From the NCBI GenBank assembly GCA_001769505.1, contig MEOF01000064.1, forward strand, positions 1-50,723: a stretch of DNA of 50,723 bases, given 5' to 3'. The notes below the pieces were generated by a model. That model saw only the letters and a program-made list of their open reading frames with translations. It had not been told where the DNA came from and ran no database searches. A program made the position numbers and the translations under genes. Source of the stretch: Bacteroidetes bacterium GWF2_33_38. Lineage in GTDB: Bacteria > Bacteroidota > Bacteroidia > Bacteroidales > GWF2-33-38. Positions 8,171-13,820 of the stretch are shown in pieces. The first letter of the stretch is position 1, and each line of letters opens with the position of its first letter.

Positions 8171-8202
8171 AAAACAACACATATATTGATATGTGTTGTT
8201 TT
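8171..8202 (-). terminator. Terminator of the propeller/SprB secreted protein gene
   Basis: A 14-bp perfect stem (AAAACAACACATAT with its complement) and four-base loop lie about 70 bases after the stop at 8273. On the minus strand a T-rich tract follows. Confidence 0.8.
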
Positions 8203-8272: not shown

Positions 8273-11200
8273 TTACTTAACAAATCTATATGTATAAGAT
8301 TCTGTTTGGTTTGTTAAACGAACAATATACATTCCTCTTTCAAGATTTTGCGTATTTATTCTTAAAGCATCGTTTCCTTGAATATTGTTTTCTGAATAAA
8401 TCATTTGCCCATTTATTCCAAATATCTCAACTTTATCGGCAGAAAGATTGTTTAATTCTACATTAAGAAAATCTTTAACCGGATTTGGATATAATTTGCA
8501 TAAAGGTTGAGAATTTTCAATAATATCGGTTGTAAGTGTTTCAACATGAATATAACTCATATATGTTGCAAGTGCTTTATTTGACTCACAATTAATAGTT
8601 ATGTATATTGCATAACTTCCATTTTCATAACCTAGATAATTGGAATTGACTGTAAATGTTATACTTCCAGATACAAAATTCCATGTTACAACAATTGTGT
8701 TGCCTCCAACAACTTCGACATTTGAAACATAAAAGCTATCAATTGTTCCAAAGCATGTATCAATAGTATTTGTAAATAGAGAGTCAATCAACGGTCCTCC
8801 ATTTTCATCATAAGGCTCATATAGTTGAGCATACAGTTCTACTGTAGGGCAAGCAGGATTAGCGTCAAAAATTGTAACGCTATAAGCTCCTGATGTTAAA
8901 TTATTAATATCTTCAGTTGTAGCTCCATTAGTCCATAAATATGTATAAGGAGATGTTCCATTAAAAACTGTAACATTAATACTTCCATCGTTTGCTCCAA
9001 TATAAGAAACAGGTACTACATTATACGTTGCCGAAAGATTACATGTTACAGAATCATTTTCGTATCCTACATAAAACTGTTCATAAGCGACACAACCATT
9101 TGCATCAATAACTTCAACTGAATATAAACCAAAATATACATTCAATAAGTCTTCCGAAAATGTACTGTCAGACCATGAATATAAATAAGGAGACACTCCT
9201 CCTGTTACAAATAAATCTATAGAGCCATCAGCAGAATTTGCACTTGAACAATTTGTTATACTGTCGTAAATAGCTATATTACAGGAATCTATGTTAGTAG
9301 AATCATTTTCAACTTCTACATTAAATTGACCAGATATTGAACAACCATTTGCATCAAATACATCTACAGAATAAAAACCTGAATAAAGACCTGCCAAATC
9401 TTCAGTAATGCTACTATCTGACCATGAGAAAAAATAAGGTGCTACTCCACCAATTACAGTAATATCAATTGCTCCATCAGATGAATTTGCACTTGAGCAA
9501 TTTGTTACTTCACCTGTAATAATAATATTACAAGAATCTATCGTAAGTGTATCACAATAAGAACTAGAACAGTCGCCTGTGGTAACAATATTTAAGCATA
9601 CACTATAAACACCCGCTGAATTAAAATAAAATACTGGATTTTGCTCATTTGATGTAAAGCTTGTGTCTATTCCAGAAATTGTCCAATTCCATGAAACTAC
9701 ATTTATTTGACTACTATCATTATTTTGTGAATAATCAAAAAAAGCATAAGAACCTGAACTTCCCATTTCAACAGAATCCGGATAATATGTGAAATATGCT
9801 TGACATTGAGTATTTAGTGGTTCACTAAGTTTTGCAACAAAAATATCATTGAACCCAGTATTATTTGCTATAATTGAATCAAAAGCAATGCTGTTACTTG
9901 CAAAGAATCCTGAAACATATATACTCCCTGATGAAAATGATGTTATACTTTTTATCTGCTCATCATTTATTCCGCCAACAGATTTTGCCCATAAAACATT
10001 TAAATTGCCATCATATTTTGTCACAAAAACATCAAATGCTCCATTATTTGACAATATATATGCCCCCATAGTTGTTGGCAAACTACTGCCGAAATATCCT
10101 GCTAAGTAAATATTACCTGTTGCGTCAATGCTTATTGAATTAGTTTGATCATAAGAAGTTCCTCCATCTGATCTTGAGCTTAATATATTTCCACTACTAT
10201 TCAATTTAATAAGAAAAATATCATGGTCACCATTATTTGTTAATGTAGTTGAATCTATAAAAATAGTAGGGCTTCCGAAATAGCCCGCCACATAAATATT
10301 TTGATTATTATCACAGATAATAGATGTTGCATAGTCATCATATATTCCTTTAAAAGACTTAGACCATTCTACAACACCGTTATAGTTATATTTTACAATA
10401 AATATTTCTGGATAACCAGTAACAATATTGATTAGAGTATCTGCACCAAAGACAATAGAATTATCATTAAAATTTCCAGCAACATAAATATTTCCAATGC
10501 TGTCTGTACAAACTGAATTTGCCTTGCTTGTACTTGCAGCTTGTTTTGCCCAAAGAGCATTTCCATTGCTGTCATATTTGGTAACGAACATATTATTAGA
10601 GCTGGAAGTATTATTTTCTAAAGTATCATTCCCGAAAACAATAACACCACCTTTATACCAACCTACAGCAGATATATCACCTAAAAAATCTATATAAATT
10701 GAACTTACTTGATCAATATTCGTGCTACCTGCTGACTTTGCCCAGATTACATTGCCTAATGAATCATATTTTGCAATAAAAATATCACTTAATCCCGTAC
10801 TAAATAAAATAGTTGATCCAAAAACAACAGTTCCTTCAAAACTTCCAGCCAAAACAATATTGCCAAAAGCATCTGTTTTTAGTGAAGATGGGACATCATC
10901 CCCCAGACCTCCTGCTGACTTTGCCCAAATTACATTGCCTATTGAATCATATTTAACAATGAAAATATCATTACTACCATTACTGTTAACATTGTTTAAA
11001 GTAGTTGTTCCAAATGTAACAGGGGAACCTCCAAATTGCCCTACAACAATAATATTACCATTATTATCAGTTGTCATTGAAACAGCAGATTCATTATAAA
11101 TGTTGCTCCCTGCTGTTTCCACCCAACTCCAACTTGGAACTTGCCCAAATGAAATAATTACATTAAACATAATTATTATCATTAATAGTTTATTTTTCAT
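8273..11200 (-). CDS. T9SS-secreted protein: seven-repeat propeller, PKD-like and SprB-like domains, type A sorting domain
   Basis: A 975-residue exported protein. Residues 1-19 are a signal peptide (KNKLLMIIIMFNVIISFG). Residues 25-465 hold seven repeats of about 56-65 residues, each with a core like GNIYVAGxF..DIFVxKYDSxGNVxWAKS. This is the SBBP-type repeat, and seven copies suggest a closed seven-bladed beta-propeller. A PKD/Ig-like segment follows (about 465-555, VVSWNWTISG), then about three SprB-like units (GGVAPYFFSWSDSS, GGVSPYLYSWSDST, GTSPYTYLWTNG), an all-beta segment, and a C-terminal T9SS domain beginning LCKLYPNPVKDFLNVEL and ending in TYRFVK. The sorting domain predicts export through the PorU-type machinery and surface attachment or release. 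It lies downstream of an ECF sigma/membrane-regulator pair and shares the sigma gene's promoter motif. Confidence 0.93.
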   Translation of the reverse strand: MKNKLLMIIIMFNVIISFGQVPSWSWVETAGSNIYNESAVSMTTDNNGNIIVVGQFGGSPVTFGTTTLNNVNSNGSNDIFIVKYDSIGNVIWAKSAGGLGDDVPSSLKTDAFGNIVLAGSFEGTVVFGSTILFSTGLSDIFIAKYDSLGNVIWAKSAGSTNIDQVSSIYIDFLGDISAVGWYKGGVIVFGNDTLENNTSSSNNMFVTKYDSNGNALWAKQAASTSKANSVCTDSIGNIYVAGNFNDNSIVFGADTLINIVTGYPEIFIVKYNYNGVVEWSKSFKGIYDDYATSIICDNNQNIYVAGYFGSPTIFIDSTTLTNNGDHDIFLIKLNSSGNILSSRSDGGTSYDQTNSISIDATGNIYLAGYFGSSLPTTMGAYILSNNGAFDVFVTKYDGNLNVLWAKSVGGINDEQIKSITSFSSGSIYVSGFFASNSIAFDSIIANNTGFNDIFVAKLSEPLNTQCQAYFTYYPDSVEMGSSGSYAFFDYSQNNDSSQINVVSWNWTISGIDTSFTSNEQNPVFYFNSAGVYSVCLNIVTTGDCSSSYCDTLTIDSCNIIITGEVTNCSSANSSDGAIDITVIGGVAPYFFSWSDSSITEDLAGLYSGFYSVDVFDANGCSISGQFNVEVENDSTNIDSCNIAIYDSITNCSSANSADGSIDLFVTGGVSPYLYSWSDSTFSEDLLNVYFGLYSVEVIDANGCVAYEQFYVGYENDSVTCNLSATYNVVPVSYIGANDGSINVTVFNGTSPYTYLWTNGATTEDINNLTSGAYSVTIFDANPACPTVELYAQLYEPYDENGGPLIDSLFTNTIDTCFGTIDSFYVSNVEVVGGNTIVVTWNFVSGSITFTVNSNYLGYENGSYAIYITINCESNKALATYMSYIHVETLTTDIIENSQPLCKLYPNPVKDFLNVELNNLSADKVEIFGINGQMIYSENNIQGNDALRINTQNLERGMYIVRLTNQTESYTYRFVK

Positions 11201-11232: not shown

Positions 11233-11264
11233 ATAAAACACAAATTTATAAAAAGGTTGTCTGA
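11233..11264 (-). promoter_or_regulatory. Putative ECF-sigma promoter (target copy)
   Basis: On the minus strand TCAGACAACC, a 13-base T/A-rich spacer, then GTGTTTTAT. The same arrangement with the same spacer length occurs upstream of the ECF sigma gene at 13618-13649. It lies 33 bases ahead of the start of the secreted propeller gene. A -7-like TAAATTTG at 11248-11241 overlaps it, so the housekeeping factor could also read this region. Recognition by the neighbouring sigma factor is inference. Confidence 0.6.
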
Positions 11265-11270
11265 TAAAAA

Positions 11271-13034
11271 TCAAAATTTTATTCTAGCTCCAATTTTTAA
11301 CATAATTGCATTCGATTTTCTTTGTAATATAGCATCTGATTTATACGATGAAATTATTGAATACCTGTATGTTGGTTCAATAAACAAACTTATTTTTTCT
11401 GTTATATTATAGTTAATATTCATATAAATAATTCCTGTTAAACTTATTTTTCTAAATGGTAAGTTTTCAATTGAGACTTCGTTATTTTGTAAATCTTCTG
11501 ATATATTACTCCCCGATTTTTTAAATAAAATTCCTGTAGCTATTCCGCCTCCAGAAGTTATGTCTATATTTCCAAATTGAAATTTGTATCCAACCGTAAA
11601 TGGAATTTCAAAATATGAATACTTGTTGAGATATGATTTGTTTTTCAACGAATCGTAAACAGTTGTTAGCACTGAATCATACATATTTACAAGATTCAAT
11701 TCAGTAATATCAACCCAAGATGAATCACCCACATAAATTATTGAGTCCTGAACATAAGTATAATGATAATATCCGCCAATTGTATCAATGTCGTAATATT
11801 GACCATCTTGCTCAAAATCATAAGGGTTGTTATTAAAAATCAAATCAAGGTTGTCGTGTGGATTATTCAAAATCAATTCGTAATTATAATTTTCTGAAAT
11901 GTTTATTAAATCAAGACCTGCTTGAAATAACATCCTGTTTTTGCTAAAACCACCTCTAAAACCAAATGAATTATACGAAATTGTATTTGAAAATGCATCG
12001 TTTTTTTGCTCAGCTAAAGTTTTAAATTCTTCATTTTCTGTTTTATACGATGTTATTGTAGTTAAAGAAGTCCAGTAAAAATCAACAAACCACGATTTTT
12101 GCTTTTTTATGAATTCTTGAATAAACGAAGTGTCAATCATTGTTCCTGTTAAATAGTAATTTATATTTTTAAGTTCAGTATTTTGGATTAAACCTGACAA
12201 TTTGTTCATTTTATAAATTTGAGAATAGTTGTTTTCTATTGACAAGGTTTCTTCTGAGTTAGATAATTTTGGCGTTTCAAAAATTGTATTTAGCTCATTT
12301 GTGCCTACATTATTTGCGTTTGACGAATATAGTTGAGACTCATCATTTATTTCTTCATTATGTTGATTGCTAAGGTCTTTTGCTGTAATATCTTTATTAA
12401 TTATAATAGAAGGGCCTAGATTCGTTGAGGGATTAGGAATATTATTTAAATAATTCTCTGAATTCGCATTTTCATTAATTGATAAATTTCCCTTTTTTGA
12501 ATCTGAATCAGATTTATCAATATTTTGTTCTGATTTAATTACAGATGCTTCTTCGGATTTATCATTTTTAACTGGTATTTGATTCGCAGTTTTAACTTTG
12601 TCTAATTCGTTATTAATTGATTCTTGATTTGAAATCGTTTTTGTTTGTAAAGTATTGTTGTGTTCTATTTCTTTTTGAATATTAGAATTATTTTCTGTTT
12701 GTGATTCTGTAATTAGATTTTTATGATTTGAAATATTAGAATTTTTAGAAGGATTCGCATTTTCATTAAAAGCAATTGAAAAATTGTTCTGATTATTAGA
12801 TTCAATTAATTCAGCATTTTTTAATGCGTTTTCGTTTGACGGAAAATAAAAAATTCCAAACAAAATAAAGCAAATGAGGCAAACCACAAGTGCTATTTTC
12901 GTTTTATGAAAGTGAATAAGATTGACAAAAAACATTTTTCTATCAATTCTAGTCTTGAGCATTTCAGAAGGTTGAACCTCGAACGTTTCAAACGAATCTG
13001 AAATAAAATCTTCTATGTTTCTTTTCTCGCTCAT
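11271..13034 (-). CDS. Membrane regulator with anti-sigma-like N-terminus and C-terminal beta-barrel
   Basis: A 587-residue protein in three parts. Residues 1-43 are charged and cytosolic-looking. Residues 44-64 form one hydrophobic helix (TKIALVVCLICFILFGIFYF). Residues 66-290 are an Asn/Ser/Glu/Lys-rich, low-complexity linker. Residues 305-587 are alternating aromatic/hydrophobic beta-strands with the YFEIPFTVGYKF motif typical of PorT/OMP_b-brl_2 barrels and a terminal ...GARIKF ending in Phe, the usual outer-membrane barrel end. Its ATG overlaps the stop of the ECF sigma gene by four bases, the standard layout of sigma/anti-sigma pairs, so residues 1-43 may bind the sigma factor. No zinc-binding HxxxCxxC motif was seen, so it is not a ZAS-type anti-sigma. 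Function is inference. Confidence 0.75.
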   Translation of the reverse strand: MSEKRNIEDFISDSFETFEVQPSEMLKTRIDRKMFFVNLIHFHKTKIALVVCLICFILFGIFYFPSNENALKNAELIESNNQNNFSIAFNENANPSKNSNISNHKNLITESQTENNSNIQKEIEHNNTLQTKTISNQESINNELDKVKTANQIPVKNDKSEEASVIKSEQNIDKSDSDSKKGNLSINENANSENYLNNIPNPSTNLGPSIIINKDITAKDLSNQHNEEINDESQLYSSNANNVGTNELNTIFETPKLSNSEETLSIENNYSQIYKMNKLSGLIQNTELKNINYYLTGTMIDTSFIQEFIKKQKSWFVDFYWTSLTTITSYKTENEEFKTLAEQKNDAFSNTISYNSFGFRGGFSKNRMLFQAGLDLINISENYNYELILNNPHDNLDLIFNNNPYDFEQDGQYYDIDTIGGYYHYTYVQDSIIYVGDSSWVDITELNLVNMYDSVLTTVYDSLKNKSYLNKYSYFEIPFTVGYKFQFGNIDITSGGGIATGILFKKSGSNISEDLQNNEVSIENLPFRKISLTGIIYMNINYNITEKISLFIEPTYRYSIISSYKSDAILQRKSNAIMLKIGARIKF

Positions 13035-13600
13035 AATAAAGAATTTGATTCTACTGACTGACGACTAAGTCTTTCTTTTAAATACTTTTTTGATTTCAAC
13101 AATTGTGATTTCGAAGTGCTTACGCTAACTCCAAGAGAATCAGCTATTTCTTGATGACTAAATTTTTCTATTACAAACATATTAAAGACAAGTCGATAAC
13201 CATTTGGCATTGACTCAACTATTTTTAGAATTTCAGAAGGTTCAATGTAAGGATAACTGCTTTGTTCTTCAACATTGGCTATATTATCTGAGAGAGTATC
13301 GTCATCAATATCTACATGAAAAGCATGTTTAAGATTATCTCTCAAATAATTCAATGCTGTGTTAACTGTAATTCTTTTTGCCCAAGAATACAAAGAACCT
13401 TCGTTTTTGTGTTCAAACTTTTTAATACTAATGTAAATCTTAATAAAAGCATCATGCAGTACATCTTCAGCCTCCATTCTATTTTTTATATAACGAATAC
13501 ACACGCCTAACAGAAGTGCTGCATACTTTTCGTACAACAAATTCTGAAATCGTTTTTTTCCCTTTTTACAGCCTTCAACTATTTCCTTTTCCGAAAACAT
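13031..13600 (-). CDS. ECF-family RNA polymerase sigma factor
   Basis: A 189-residue sigma-70 family protein of extracytoplasmic-function type. Region 2 is visible at about residues 22-90 (AALLLGVCIRYIKNRMEAEDVLHDAFIKIY, then the WAKRITVNTALNYLR helix that reads the -10 element). Region 4 is at about 125-180 with a helix-turn-helix (EKFSHQEIADSLGVSVSTSKSQLLKSKKYLKERL). Region 3 is absent, as expected for the group. It overlaps the downstream membrane-regulator gene (ATGA). Its own upstream region carries the motif shared with the secreted-protein gene, consistent with autoregulation. The activating signal is unknown. Confidence 0.95.
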   Translation of the reverse strand: MFSEKEIVEGCKKGKKRFQNLLYEKYAALLLGVCIRYIKNRMEAEDVLHDAFIKIYISIKKFEHKNEGSLYSWAKRITVNTALNYLRDNLKHAFHVDIDDDTLSDNIANVEEQSSYPYIEPSEILKIVESMPNGYRLVFNMFVIEKFSHQEIADSLGVSVSTSKSQLLKSKKYLKERLSRQSVESNSLL

Positions 13601-13617
13601 GTATTCGTTTCTATTTA

Positions 13618-13649
13618 CTAAAACACTAAAGTTAAAAAAGGTTGCCTGA
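13618..13649 (-). promoter_or_regulatory. Putative autoregulated ECF-sigma promoter
   Basis: On the minus strand TCAGGCAACC, a 13-base spacer beginning TTTTTT, then GTGTTTTAG, ending about 18 bases before the sigma ATG. It matches the element upstream of the secreted propeller gene in 9 of 10 and 8 of 9 positions of the two boxes, with the same spacing. An AAC-containing -35 box is typical of ECF promoters. Confidence 0.6.
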
Positions 13650-13789: not shown

Positions 13790-13820
13790 AAAAAAGCAGA
13801 TGGGTTTCATCTGCTTTTTT
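13790..13820 (-). terminator. Terminator of the PepD gene
   Basis: Arms AAAAAAGCAGATG and CATCTGCTTTTTT pair around a five-base loop 38 bases past the PepD stop. The stem has A/T tails on both sides, so it could work in either direction. The rest of 13650-13789 shows no gene. Confidence 0.85.

Follow-up and report, generated by a model that had tools for sequence, protein, structure and literature searches.

Paired ECF-type promoter motifs upstream of a sigma factor gene and a T9SS cargo gene in Bacteroidetes bacterium GWF2_33_38

Background

What does it mean that one two-box sequence stands both before the gene of a sigma factor and before that of a secreted protein? On the minus strand of contig MEOF01000064.1 of Bacteroidetes bacterium GWF2_33_38, an ECF sigma gene is followed by the anti-sigma gene that adjoins it and then by a T9SS cargo gene (Table 1). 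A preliminary description of this DNA had proposed that the sequence is an ECF promoter and that sigma factor, membrane sensor and surface cargo form a closed circuit. Here the proposal is compared with the window, that is, the whole analysed stretch of 50,723 nucleotides, and with related genomes.

Table 1. Features of the sigma, anti-sigma and cargo cassette, with positions in the window
Feature	Positions	Strand	Remarks
Candidate ECF promoter, sigma copy	13619..13649	-	Upstream of sigma gene; end 18 bases from ATG
Boxes of sigma copy	13640-13649; 13619-13626	-	-35 region TCAGGCAACC (13640-13649); 13-base spacer; -10 region GTGTTTTA (13619-13626)
ECF sigma factor, 189 aa	13031..13600	-	Sigma70_r2, Sigma70_r4_2
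Dma/Reo-like dual membrane-spanning anti-sigma factor, 587 aa	11271..13034	-	4-base overlap with sigma gene
Anti-sigma inner-membrane helix (predicted), residues 44-66	12837..12905	-	Structure model and hydropathy
Anti-sigma tether, Asn/Ser-rich, disordered, residues 84-300	12135..12785	-	pLDDT mostly <50
Anti-sigma 8-stranded outer-membrane barrel (predicted), residues 313-586	11277..12098	-	Model and Foldseek
Anti-sigma loop between barrel strands 3 and 4, about 80 residues (386-465)	11640..11879	-	Model
Candidate ECF promoter, cargo copy	11234..11264	-	Upstream of cargo gene; start 7 bases past anti-sigma stop
Boxes of cargo copy	11255-11264; 11234-11241	-	-35 region TCAGACAACC (11255-11264); 13-base spacer; -10 GTGTTTTA (11234-11241)
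T9SS type A cargo, 975 aa	8273..11200	-	SBBP propeller, PKD-like and SprB repeats, sorting domain
Cargo Cys-pair, PKD/Ig-like domain, residues 804-886	8543..8791	-	Directly N-terminal of sorting domain
Cargo T9SS C-terminal sorting domain	8282..8494	-	PF18962 and TIGR04183, both above cut-off

The motif in the window and in the genome

The motif had been given as TCAGRCAACC, 13 bases and GTGTTTTA, before both the sigma and the cargo gene. Both minus-strand copies are present with a spacer of exactly 13 bases; the sites were placed correctly, but their starts, put at 13618 and 11233, were one base off and are corrected here to 13619 and 11234. No match was found in 100 dinucleotide-preserving shuffles. 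The window indeed lacks a third copy, also when 3 mismatches are allowed, where the shuffle mean is 0.10.

How specific is the motif in the genome as a whole? The core RCAACCTTTTT-N8-GTGTTTTA was searched in the 3.93 Mb genome with the reversed pattern as control. At 0 mismatches only the two window copies appear, and the next two sites have 2 mismatches. At up to 3 mismatches the genome has 21 sites, the window copies included, and the reversed control has 19. Three-mismatch matches are thus noise, only exact or near-exact ones are informative, and no wider regulon can be claimed. The two copies remain the sole close matches in 3.93 Mb, which speaks against random scatter. The window was also scored on both strands with a matrix built from 126 ECF upstream regions of other loci (105 yielded a site), the window and two same-family loci being left out. 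The two copies rank first and second with 17.6 and 14.2 bits, the next site having 12.8 bits, so that the margin for the cargo site is small; it also lies under the 15-bit threshold on this matrix.

Conservation of the motif across genomes

Gene order and both motif copies recur in two genomes of the same family. Across the three genomes, which represent two genera, the common pattern gives 6 sites without mismatch, all before an ECF or a cargo gene; the 4 remaining matches all differ from it at 3 positions, and 9 matches in total come from the reversed control. The 6 sites share a CAAC(C/T) -35 box and the fixed 13-base spacing, in line with the AAC-type -35 box and conserved spacing that had suggested an ECF promoter. 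When the relatives' stretches were searched alone at 3 mismatches, their sites stood out weakly from shuffles (at least 3 matches in 1 of 200 shuffles for L052, at least 2 in 20 of 200 for L053).

One check that had been suggested is whether the motif precedes exported proteins elsewhere. Among 393 genomes of the order, its exact 17-position form occurs at 9 sites in 8 genomes, with 0 for the reversed control. Four of the 9 are before an ECF gene and four before a T9SS type A cargo gene, and the ninth lies just past an ECF-anti-sigma-cargo cassette without a clear gene downstream. A looser form is widespread: 47 of 50 related ECF genes carry it shortly upstream of the start, by a matrix trained on these same 50. 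In this training set the spacing of the boxes varies by 1-3 bases, and they lie 10-25 bases upstream of most ECF starts. Scores above 15 bits were obtained for 39 of 76 ECF upstream regions in the named loci and for 42 of 55 in the first set. The loci sampled were 40 stretches taken from the best-scoring downward and 13 more, one contig-end locus (G187 contig 364) being omitted. At the loci of 133 unique ECF genes (1.55 Mb per strand), 122 sites above 15 bits, training sites included, fall on the cassette strands and 2 on the opposite strands.

By its sequence, the motif is taken to be a form of an autoregulatory promoter general to this ECF group (CAGGCAACCTT ... GTCTTA). The -10 box is GTCT(T/A) in most relatives and GTC/CGT in the usual group form; the window form has GTGTTTTA as its -10 and a spacer 1-2 bases below the usual. 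This atypical -10, together with the fact that the sites are known from sequence only, leaves some room for another reading, in which the common element is an operator for some other regulator or a structural DNA or RNA signal, and a third factor co-regulates sigma factor and cargo. We consider this very unlikely. Against it, the two boxes keep a nearly constant spacing, lie close to most ECF starts in the training set and are found almost only on the coding strand. Such an arrangement is that of an ECF -35/-10 pair, and it goes with the ECF gene in many families. A C-to-T shift of the -10 box matched within sigma/cargo pairs was also considered (Fisher p 0.06 in 12 hand-sorted pairs, three of them from one family and the ambiguous pair L118 omitted); it is suggestive only, not significant, and is not used as support.

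Candidate promoter copies at cargo genes

Is the cargo gene transcribed from the second site, or only together with the regulators? The next ORF is a T9SS cargo gene in 49 of 73 barrel-type cassettes. Type A cargo genes at least 40 bases past the preceding gene have a site of their own in 9 of 27 cases and none above 15 bits in the other 18, compared with 7 sites for 250 genes without a sorting domain at such gaps (Fisher p 1.5e-6, a significance overstated because loci across the order are related). Directly past the anti-sigma gene, a site is found for 4 of 14 type A cargo genes and 4 of 54 genes without a sorting domain by the matrix that omits the window and its two same-family loci, the first matrix giving 8 of 14 and 3 of 52.

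It may be argued that the cargo gene is transcribed only by operon read-through or from a primary-sigma promoter, next to a second motif copy that is decayed or neutral. The 70-base gap between anti-sigma and cargo gene, where the cargo copy lies, contains no terminator-like site. In the cassette loci, 38 of 65 type A cargo genes are less than 40 bases past the preceding gene; read-through must serve there, and 0 of the 38 has its own site. In addition, the cargo spacer is overlapped by TAAATTTG (11241-11248), which fits TAnnTTTG, described as the primary-sigma -7 box (PMC9723704, PMC7366714). This match is probably due to chance, since TAAATTTG is missing from the cargo spacers of the two same-family relatives, and a primary-sigma promoter in the spacer was rejected as a candidate. 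Sigma-70-type hexamers hardly exceed the shuffle level, with 43 in the DNA and 39.7 in shuffles; their consensus differs from the one described for Bacteroidota (PMC7366714). A decayed copy is also hard to reconcile with a cargo site that follows the common pattern without mismatch in all three genomes, which belong to two genera, and with exact copies before the cargo genes of G130, G162 and G320. For G320, tblastn (E 0.001) found no relative of the sigma gene within the 16 kb examined, which leaves no such operon there to supply read-through. Transcription without the second site is, in our judgement, very unlikely. We conclude from the sequence comparisons that the two sites are, with high probability, promoters of one ECF sigma factor, one for its own operon and one for the T9SS cargo gene. 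Conservation in three genomes, the motifs of related ECF genes and the scan of 393 genomes all support the autoregulation and common cargo promoter proposed at the outset.

The anti-sigma factor and the cargo protein

Assignment of the sigma factor to TIGR02985 was rejected, its 85 bits being below the 126-bit cut-off. At E 0.01 the anti-sigma factor is matched by neither Pfam nor NCBIfam, but Pfam OMP_b-brl_2 appears in 13 of 50 relatives. The window protein has a conserved helical N-domain common to those found in the anti-sigma position, modelled at a pLDDT of only about 64-73. This domain is followed by a model helix with a hydropathy peak at residue 46 and by the tether, which has no secondary structure in the model. 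The C-terminal part is modelled as a barrel with eight long strands and a C-terminal Phe (blockwise pLDDT mostly 83-98); its best PDB match by Foldseek is OmpA (E 2.4e-7). By prediction, the protein thus extends from the cytoplasm as far as the outer membrane, and with its C-terminal barrel its predicted architecture matches the published Dma/Reo design. The strand 3-4 loop, where model confidence is low (pLDDT 38-65 by block), is predicted from the strand count to face outside; it is well conserved in comparison with a same-family protein, and the tether is not (alignment judged by eye). In a sister class, 15 of 50 by Pfam, the anti-sigma factor has a T9SS type B sorting domain at its C-terminus.

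The cargo protein begins with a sequence that by eye resembles a signal peptide, and its sorting domain scores 55.1 bits for PF18962 (cut-off 27) and 49.7 bits for TIGR04183 (cut-off 23). The genome has 142 sorting-domain matches at E <=0.001 and the translocon gene sprA (surface_SprA, 2681.5 bits, positions 2-2318 of 2319). Compared with proteins of the same family, the last 360 residues of the cargo are conserved and the first ~440 are not. The Cys-pair stretch of the window cargo has no Pfam match; hits to PDB 6aem (E 0.0098) and, for 3 of 10 sequences, to Pfam PKD_4 (E <=1) make the domain a remote PKD/Ig-like fold at best. Twelve of its 26 matches lie behind a cassette of this type. The idea that it is common to all cargo failed, as it is encoded by only 9 of the 49 type A cargo genes that come right after an anti-sigma gene.

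Discussion

How might such a circuit work? The sigma factor would bind the first site and transcribe its own operon, sigma gene first and anti-sigma gene second, and would transcribe the cargo gene from the second site. With a second promoter in the gap, the cargo could exceed its regulators in amount under the same switch. The anti-sigma factor would be one polypeptide in which cytoplasmic helices hold the sigma factor, followed by the inner-membrane segment, the disordered tether and the outer-membrane barrel with its large outward loop. An event at the surface or outer membrane, such as a ligand, envelope damage or the presence of cargo, might be felt at the barrel and free the sigma factor. 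We infer that sigma factor, sensor and cargo would in this way form a closed circuit.

Then what is the signal? Two possibilities bear on this question only, and both are compatible with two promoters of one sigma factor. The first is that the anti-sigma factor senses general outer-membrane stress and the cargo forms a protective surface layer with no sensing role, to which we give a little less than an even chance. Reo/EcfO of Phocaeicola vulgatus, with the same predicted architecture as here, is reported to be induced by envelope-targeting toxins and to drive surface lipoproteins (PMC9308784, PMC13114119), and general outer-membrane stress sensing has been proposed for Reo. Against a generic output, the association of the Cys-pair domain with such cassettes suggests a specific partnership. 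The second possibility makes use of this partnership: the outward loop would recognise the cargo via its Cys-pair domain, and the sigma factor would be freed when the cargo is missing, bound or damaged. Domain and cassette do co-occur, and it is the cargo C-terminal part and the anti-sigma loop that are conserved, not the cargo N-terminal part or the tether. The domain is nevertheless confined to a minority of the cargo genes directly past an anti-sigma gene, and such feedback seems rather unlikely.

Barrel and type B sorting domain may also be two interchangeable C-terminal modules by which the sigma factor reads the state of secretion or cargo, a speculative idea that is more likely wrong than right. 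Both module types would follow the same N-domain, transmembrane helix and disordered stretch in one anti-sigma family. A tethered anti-sigma factor engaged by the T9SS, or a barrel touching the Cys-pair domain of the cargo, could then report export to the cytoplasm, and the report would set transcription of the same cargo from its private promoter. If true, the T9SS would have a transcription circuit coupled to secretion, with a logic comparable to that of flagellar FlgM.

This locus provides a two-promoter circuit that can be put to the test: in a genome with 142 sorting-domain matches, a single sigma factor seems to act for one secreted surface protein. The conserved cargo domain and the conserved outward loop offer a handle on the signal of two-membrane sensors, and with the sister class, whose anti-sigma factors themselves carry a sorting domain, it can be tested directly whether T9SS regulation is coupled to export.

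Comparison with known systems

The sensor design is known, and its tie to the T9SS seems new. In the literature searched, mostly at the level of listings and abstracts and largely confined to open-access journal papers, no T9SS link is described for Dma/Reo-type anti-sigma factors. New here are the linkage to T9SS cargo, the Cys-pair domain before the cargo sorting signal, and the sister class with a type B sorting domain.

The Dma anti-sigma factors are built in the same order, from an anti-sigma domain through a transmembrane helix and a long disordered tether to a C-terminal barrel, and likewise adjoin an ECF gene (PMC13088901). In B. thetaiotaomicron, that study addresses OMV output and PULs and reports genes near dma2 among the most upregulated in a dma2 deletion mutant; its main text has 0 mentions of T9SS (PMC13088901). 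The linked output here is instead a T9SS cargo with its own promoter copy, which would carry the recently named Dma/Reo design beyond the control of vesicles and PULs, to the T9SS in many families of the order. EcfO-Reo of Bacteroides fragilis and Phocaeicola vulgatus likewise combines an ECF sigma factor with a two-membrane anti-sigma factor, and its output includes surface proteins (NigD); it differs in that surface lipoproteins and LPS-related genes are among its reported outputs (PMC9308784, PMC13114119). The EcfO motif is already published, according to PMC7366714.

A T9SS-tied ECF sigma factor, with a sorting-domain protein upstream in signalling, is also found in the PorXY-SigP and PorA system of Porphyromonas gingivalis, but SigP governs the secretion machine itself and owes its activation to a two-component system, and porA homologues are reported only in Porphyromonas (PMC7712824). 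The sigma factor described here is linked with a single cargo and with a barrel anti-sigma factor, and no two-component system or T9SS machinery genes lie within the three-gene cassette. Finally, the SM6 promoters of Flavobacterium psychrophilum are ECF-like, have mapped starts, and stand before T9SS genes and an ECF/anti-sigma pair; they have a CGT -10 box and cover T9SS machinery (PMC9723704), whereas the boxes described here differ from these and are specific to the locus.

Two copies of the motif and their conservation

The motif consists of TCAGRCAACC, 13 bases and GTGTTTTA, and its two copies on the minus strand of the window end 18 bases from the ATG of the ECF sigma gene and 33 bases from the ATG of the cargo gene. 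These copies and their 13-base spacing, first reported in a preliminary description, are borne out, and no third copy was found in the window, as had been stated, even with up to 3 mismatches allowed. In 100 shuffles of the window sequence there were 0 matches. A genome-wide search, which the same description had proposed, was done with a 27-base form on the window's own genome (3.93 Mb, 99.1% complete). The only sites with 0 mismatches are the two of the window, one before the ECF gene and one before the cargo gene, and two further sites have 2 mismatches. All sites at up to 3 mismatches number 21 versus 19 for the reversed control, and this full list is thus no longer than that of the control. 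On both sides of the three-gene unit, which lies on the minus strand, hairpins resembling terminators were called on the plus strand, at 13790-13820 and 8171-8202.

Features of the three-gene unit and of a split cassette in another genome of the order
Feature	Location	Strand	Remarks
ECF sigma gene	13031-13600	-	189 aa
Regulator (anti-sigma) gene	11271-13034	-	587 aa; 4-base overlap with sigma gene
T9SS type A cargo gene	8273-11200	-	975 aa; SprB and SBBP repeats
Motif copy before sigma gene	13619-13649	-	TCAGGCAACCTTTTTTAACTTTAGTGTTTTA
Motif copy before cargo gene	11234-11264	-	TCAGACAACCTTTTTATAAATTTGTGTTTTA
Split cassette, locus L260	G091 contig 119:3689-7684		ECF sigma, 239-aa, 316-aa, Cys-pair-domain cargo

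Two genomes of the same family, both of one other genus, have the three genes in the same order as the window, with a motif copy upstream of the sigma gene and of the cargo gene in both. When these stretches were searched alone at 3 mismatches, the motif was weak versus shuffles. A common pattern gave 6 zero-mismatch sites in the three whole genomes, all before these sigma and cargo genes, and 4 remaining matches with 3 mismatches each; the reversed pattern gave 9 matches with at most 3 mismatches. A scan of 393 genomes from the order for the exact form CAGRCAACC-N13-GTGTYTTA gave 9 sites in 8 genomes, and the reversed control gave 0. Four of the nine are upstream of ECF genes (window, G001, G002 and G200, the last with a tblastn E of 3.9e-36 for the gene) and four upstream of T9SS type A cargo genes (window, G130, G162, G320). 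The ninth, in G372, is directly 3' of an ECF-anti-sigma-cargo cassette with no clear gene behind it; this site after a complete cassette (L276:6221, contig 129) possibly belongs to a small RNA or a short ORF.

The motif as probable promoter of an ECF group

Is the motif the promoter of a larger ECF group? Relatives of the sigma factor at E 1e-30 or better occur in 153 of 198 genomes of the order. We read 53 high-scoring stretches from whole genomes and 80 named loci from one scan, which with the window gave 133 unique ECF genes at E 1e-30. A first two-box matrix, trained on 50 sigma upstreams, has the consensus CAGGCAACCTT, 11-13 bases, nnGTCTTA. A site of at least 11.6 bits is present in 47 of the 50, and one of the other three (L104) is cut by a contig end. 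Over 1.55 Mb per strand, sites above 15 bits number 122 on the cassette strands, training sites included, versus 2 on the opposite ones. ECF upstreams above 15 bits are 42 of 55 in the first set and 39 of 76 in the named set; a considerable share of the more distant members therefore rely on another element, or their start is wrongly placed.

A second matrix was built without the window's family from 126 upstreams, of which 105 have a site. On this matrix the window's sigma and cargo sites rank first and second in the window with 17.6 and 14.2 bits, and the next best position has 12.8 bits, which leaves a small margin for the cargo site. The -10 box of the window's clade (GTGTTTTA) and its short spacer are unusual for the group: both window sites fall into the shortest spacer class, in which only 2 of the 105 are found. 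As far as the sequence can tell, the shared ECF promoter of the preliminary description is the right reading: the two boxes are very probably the promoters of one ECF sigma factor, for its own operon and for the cargo gene. The small margin of the cargo site lowered our confidence in this explanation by a very slight amount.

Seven loci have tandem ECF-anti-sigma cassettes, two each (L095, L100, L103, L108, L148, L150, L202), and in the first four the first ECF gene has its site some 190-230 bases before the start codon assigned to it. ECF-like matches also lie inside long open frames of 582 and 417 aa in G002 (contig 273:10124-10591) and G033 (contig 34:4254-4814), which recall Dma3, a fused sigma and anti-sigma factor (PMC13088901).

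T9SS cargo next to the cassettes

An ORF occupies the anti-sigma position in 126 cassettes. In 73 of these the anti-sigma factor is of barrel type, a label set by size (at least 380 aa) and lack of a sorting domain, with the next ORF in view; the barrel itself was modelled for the window protein only. By a profile built in this analysis, 49 of these 73 have a type A sorting domain on the next ORF, versus 9 of 321 frames of at least 200 aa on the other strand of these loci. For the first set, profile and Pfam agreed and gave 27/50 and 27/48 type A next ORFs, 2 and 4 type B next ORFs, and 16 and 15 type B domains among 50 anti-sigma factors, respectively. The type A domain of the window cargo exceeds both curated cut-offs.

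Then how are the cargo genes linked to the sigma promoter? Type A cargo genes less than 40 bases behind the preceding gene have their own site in 0 of 38 cases. At larger gaps the number is 9/27, versus 7/250 for genes that lack a sorting domain (Fisher p 1.5e-6); leaving out the window's family gives 9/24 versus 7/246. By eye, six of the seven among the 250 start with a signal or lipoprotein sequence. For genes directly after the anti-sigma gene, the numbers are 4/14 for type A cargo and 4/54 for those without sorting domain. The first matrix gave 13/31 at larger gaps (one site counted twice), and 8/14 versus 3/52 directly after the anti-sigma gene. A site above threshold is absent from 18 of the 27 separated cargo genes. 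This dependence on the gap suggests that cargo can join the sigma promoter by its own copy or, at short gaps, by read-through. A partial SprA match (positions 773-1190) lies in a 570-aa frame beside a sorting-domain match in the window's genome (contig 32:27193-28470), and the full-length SprA is separate, on contig 47.

Compared with the same-family cargo, the window cargo is 51% identical over 367 columns at the C-terminal end and 45% identical in a second stretch, and nothing matches its first ~440 residues well. An 83-residue Cys-pair, PKD/Ig-like domain directly precedes the sorting domain in the window cargo. At E 1e-4 it was matched 26 times, in 17 of 198 genomes, and 12 of these matches are behind an ECF-anti-sigma cassette. 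The 14 non-cassette matches include solitary ones with a promoter-like site, either directly before them (G128 contig 154, G070 contig 13) or near (G192, G146, G070 contig 72, G000 contig 5), ones that follow a barrel-like gene at the end of a contig (G011 contig 222, G128 contig 109), and ones with neither (both in G049, G158, G011 contig 286). Among 31 strong profile hits, which include one protein twice, 29 have the end of the domain 87-107 residues from the C-terminus; the remaining two are a protein cut at the stretch end and L265. Since only 9 of 49 type A cargo proteins directly behind an anti-sigma factor have the domain, recognition of cargo by the barrel is hypothesised for a subset only, the window among them. 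A gene pair elsewhere in the window's genome (L266, contig 5, 5678-10619), whose second gene has a distant copy of the cargo domain, is preceded by a weaker family-type promoter site of 15.0 bits.

Anti-sigma factors with a type B sorting domain

The T9SS type B signal CHU_C was found in 15 of 50 first-set anti-sigma factors (Pfam, E 0.01). Of eight matching proteins examined one by one, seven exceed the curated cut-off and have the domain at the C-terminus (L057, L096, L097, L099, L110, L119, L123), and L111 is below. By our profile, 40 of 126 are type B, 39 of which have a hydrophobic helix and 38 of which are matched by the N-domain profile of the barrel type; this profile matches 10 of 435 other downstream ORFs, 8 being the anti-sigma factor of a second cassette in the locus. 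The model of one such protein (L151) has helices, a helix at 47-69, a disordered part at about 80-193, and beta domains to the C-terminus. Its PDB matches, with low TM-scores of 0.2-0.26, include Aureispira grappling-hook protein fragments (rank 1) and PorU (rank 9). On a quick sigma tree the barrel and type B anti-sigma factors are clustered, yet at least 6 changes between them are needed; strongly supported branches alone force 1.

Behind type B anti-sigma factors, 0 of 37 next ORFs are type A; in 9 of 37 cases at least one of the two following ORFs encodes a type B protein. The ORF after the anti-sigma gene is an M16 peptidase in 8 of 48 scanned cassettes, which by size and place seem to belong to the type B class. 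At L097, L098, L099, L110, L119, L120, L122 and L127 the next ORF is M16-peptidase-sized and is followed by a large secreted-type protein.

Architecture of the regulator and comparison with known systems

Neither Pfam nor NCBIfam gave a match to the 587-aa regulator at E 0.01. Its AlphaFold2 model with 39 sequences (mean pLDDT 61.9, pTM 0.47) has helices in residues 7-42, a helix at 44-66 where hydropathy also peaks, a disordered part at 84-300, and then, within residues 313-586, eight long strands with pLDDT mostly 83-98 by block and a low-confidence loop of about 80 residues after strand 3. The best PDB match by Foldseek is OmpA (E 2.4e-7). Identity to the same-family protein is 40% over 591 columns; by eye, conservation is good in the predicted barrel and its loop and poor in the tether. 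At the split cassette a 239-aa protein in the anti-sigma position and a separate 316-aa protein, with a signal-like start and a barrel-like end, are encoded by neighbouring genes before a cargo, which fits candidate modules that are fused elsewhere. Short proteins of 241-251 aa in the anti-sigma position, with ends type A-like by eye, are present at L059 (contig 58 of the window's genome), L060 and L061; the one at L059 has no Pfam match.

The predicted layout of the window regulator is that published for Dma2 (PMC13088901) and described for Reo (PMC9308784, PMC13114119), and on its model the regulator is of a known kind. Anti-sigma factors carrying a sorting domain had no published description in the part of the literature searched. 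New compared with the known systems are this sorting-domain class, the T9SS linkage of a known kind of regulator, and the probable private promoter of a single cargo gene where the genome has at least 142 sorting-domain matches (150 of 258 candidates scored).
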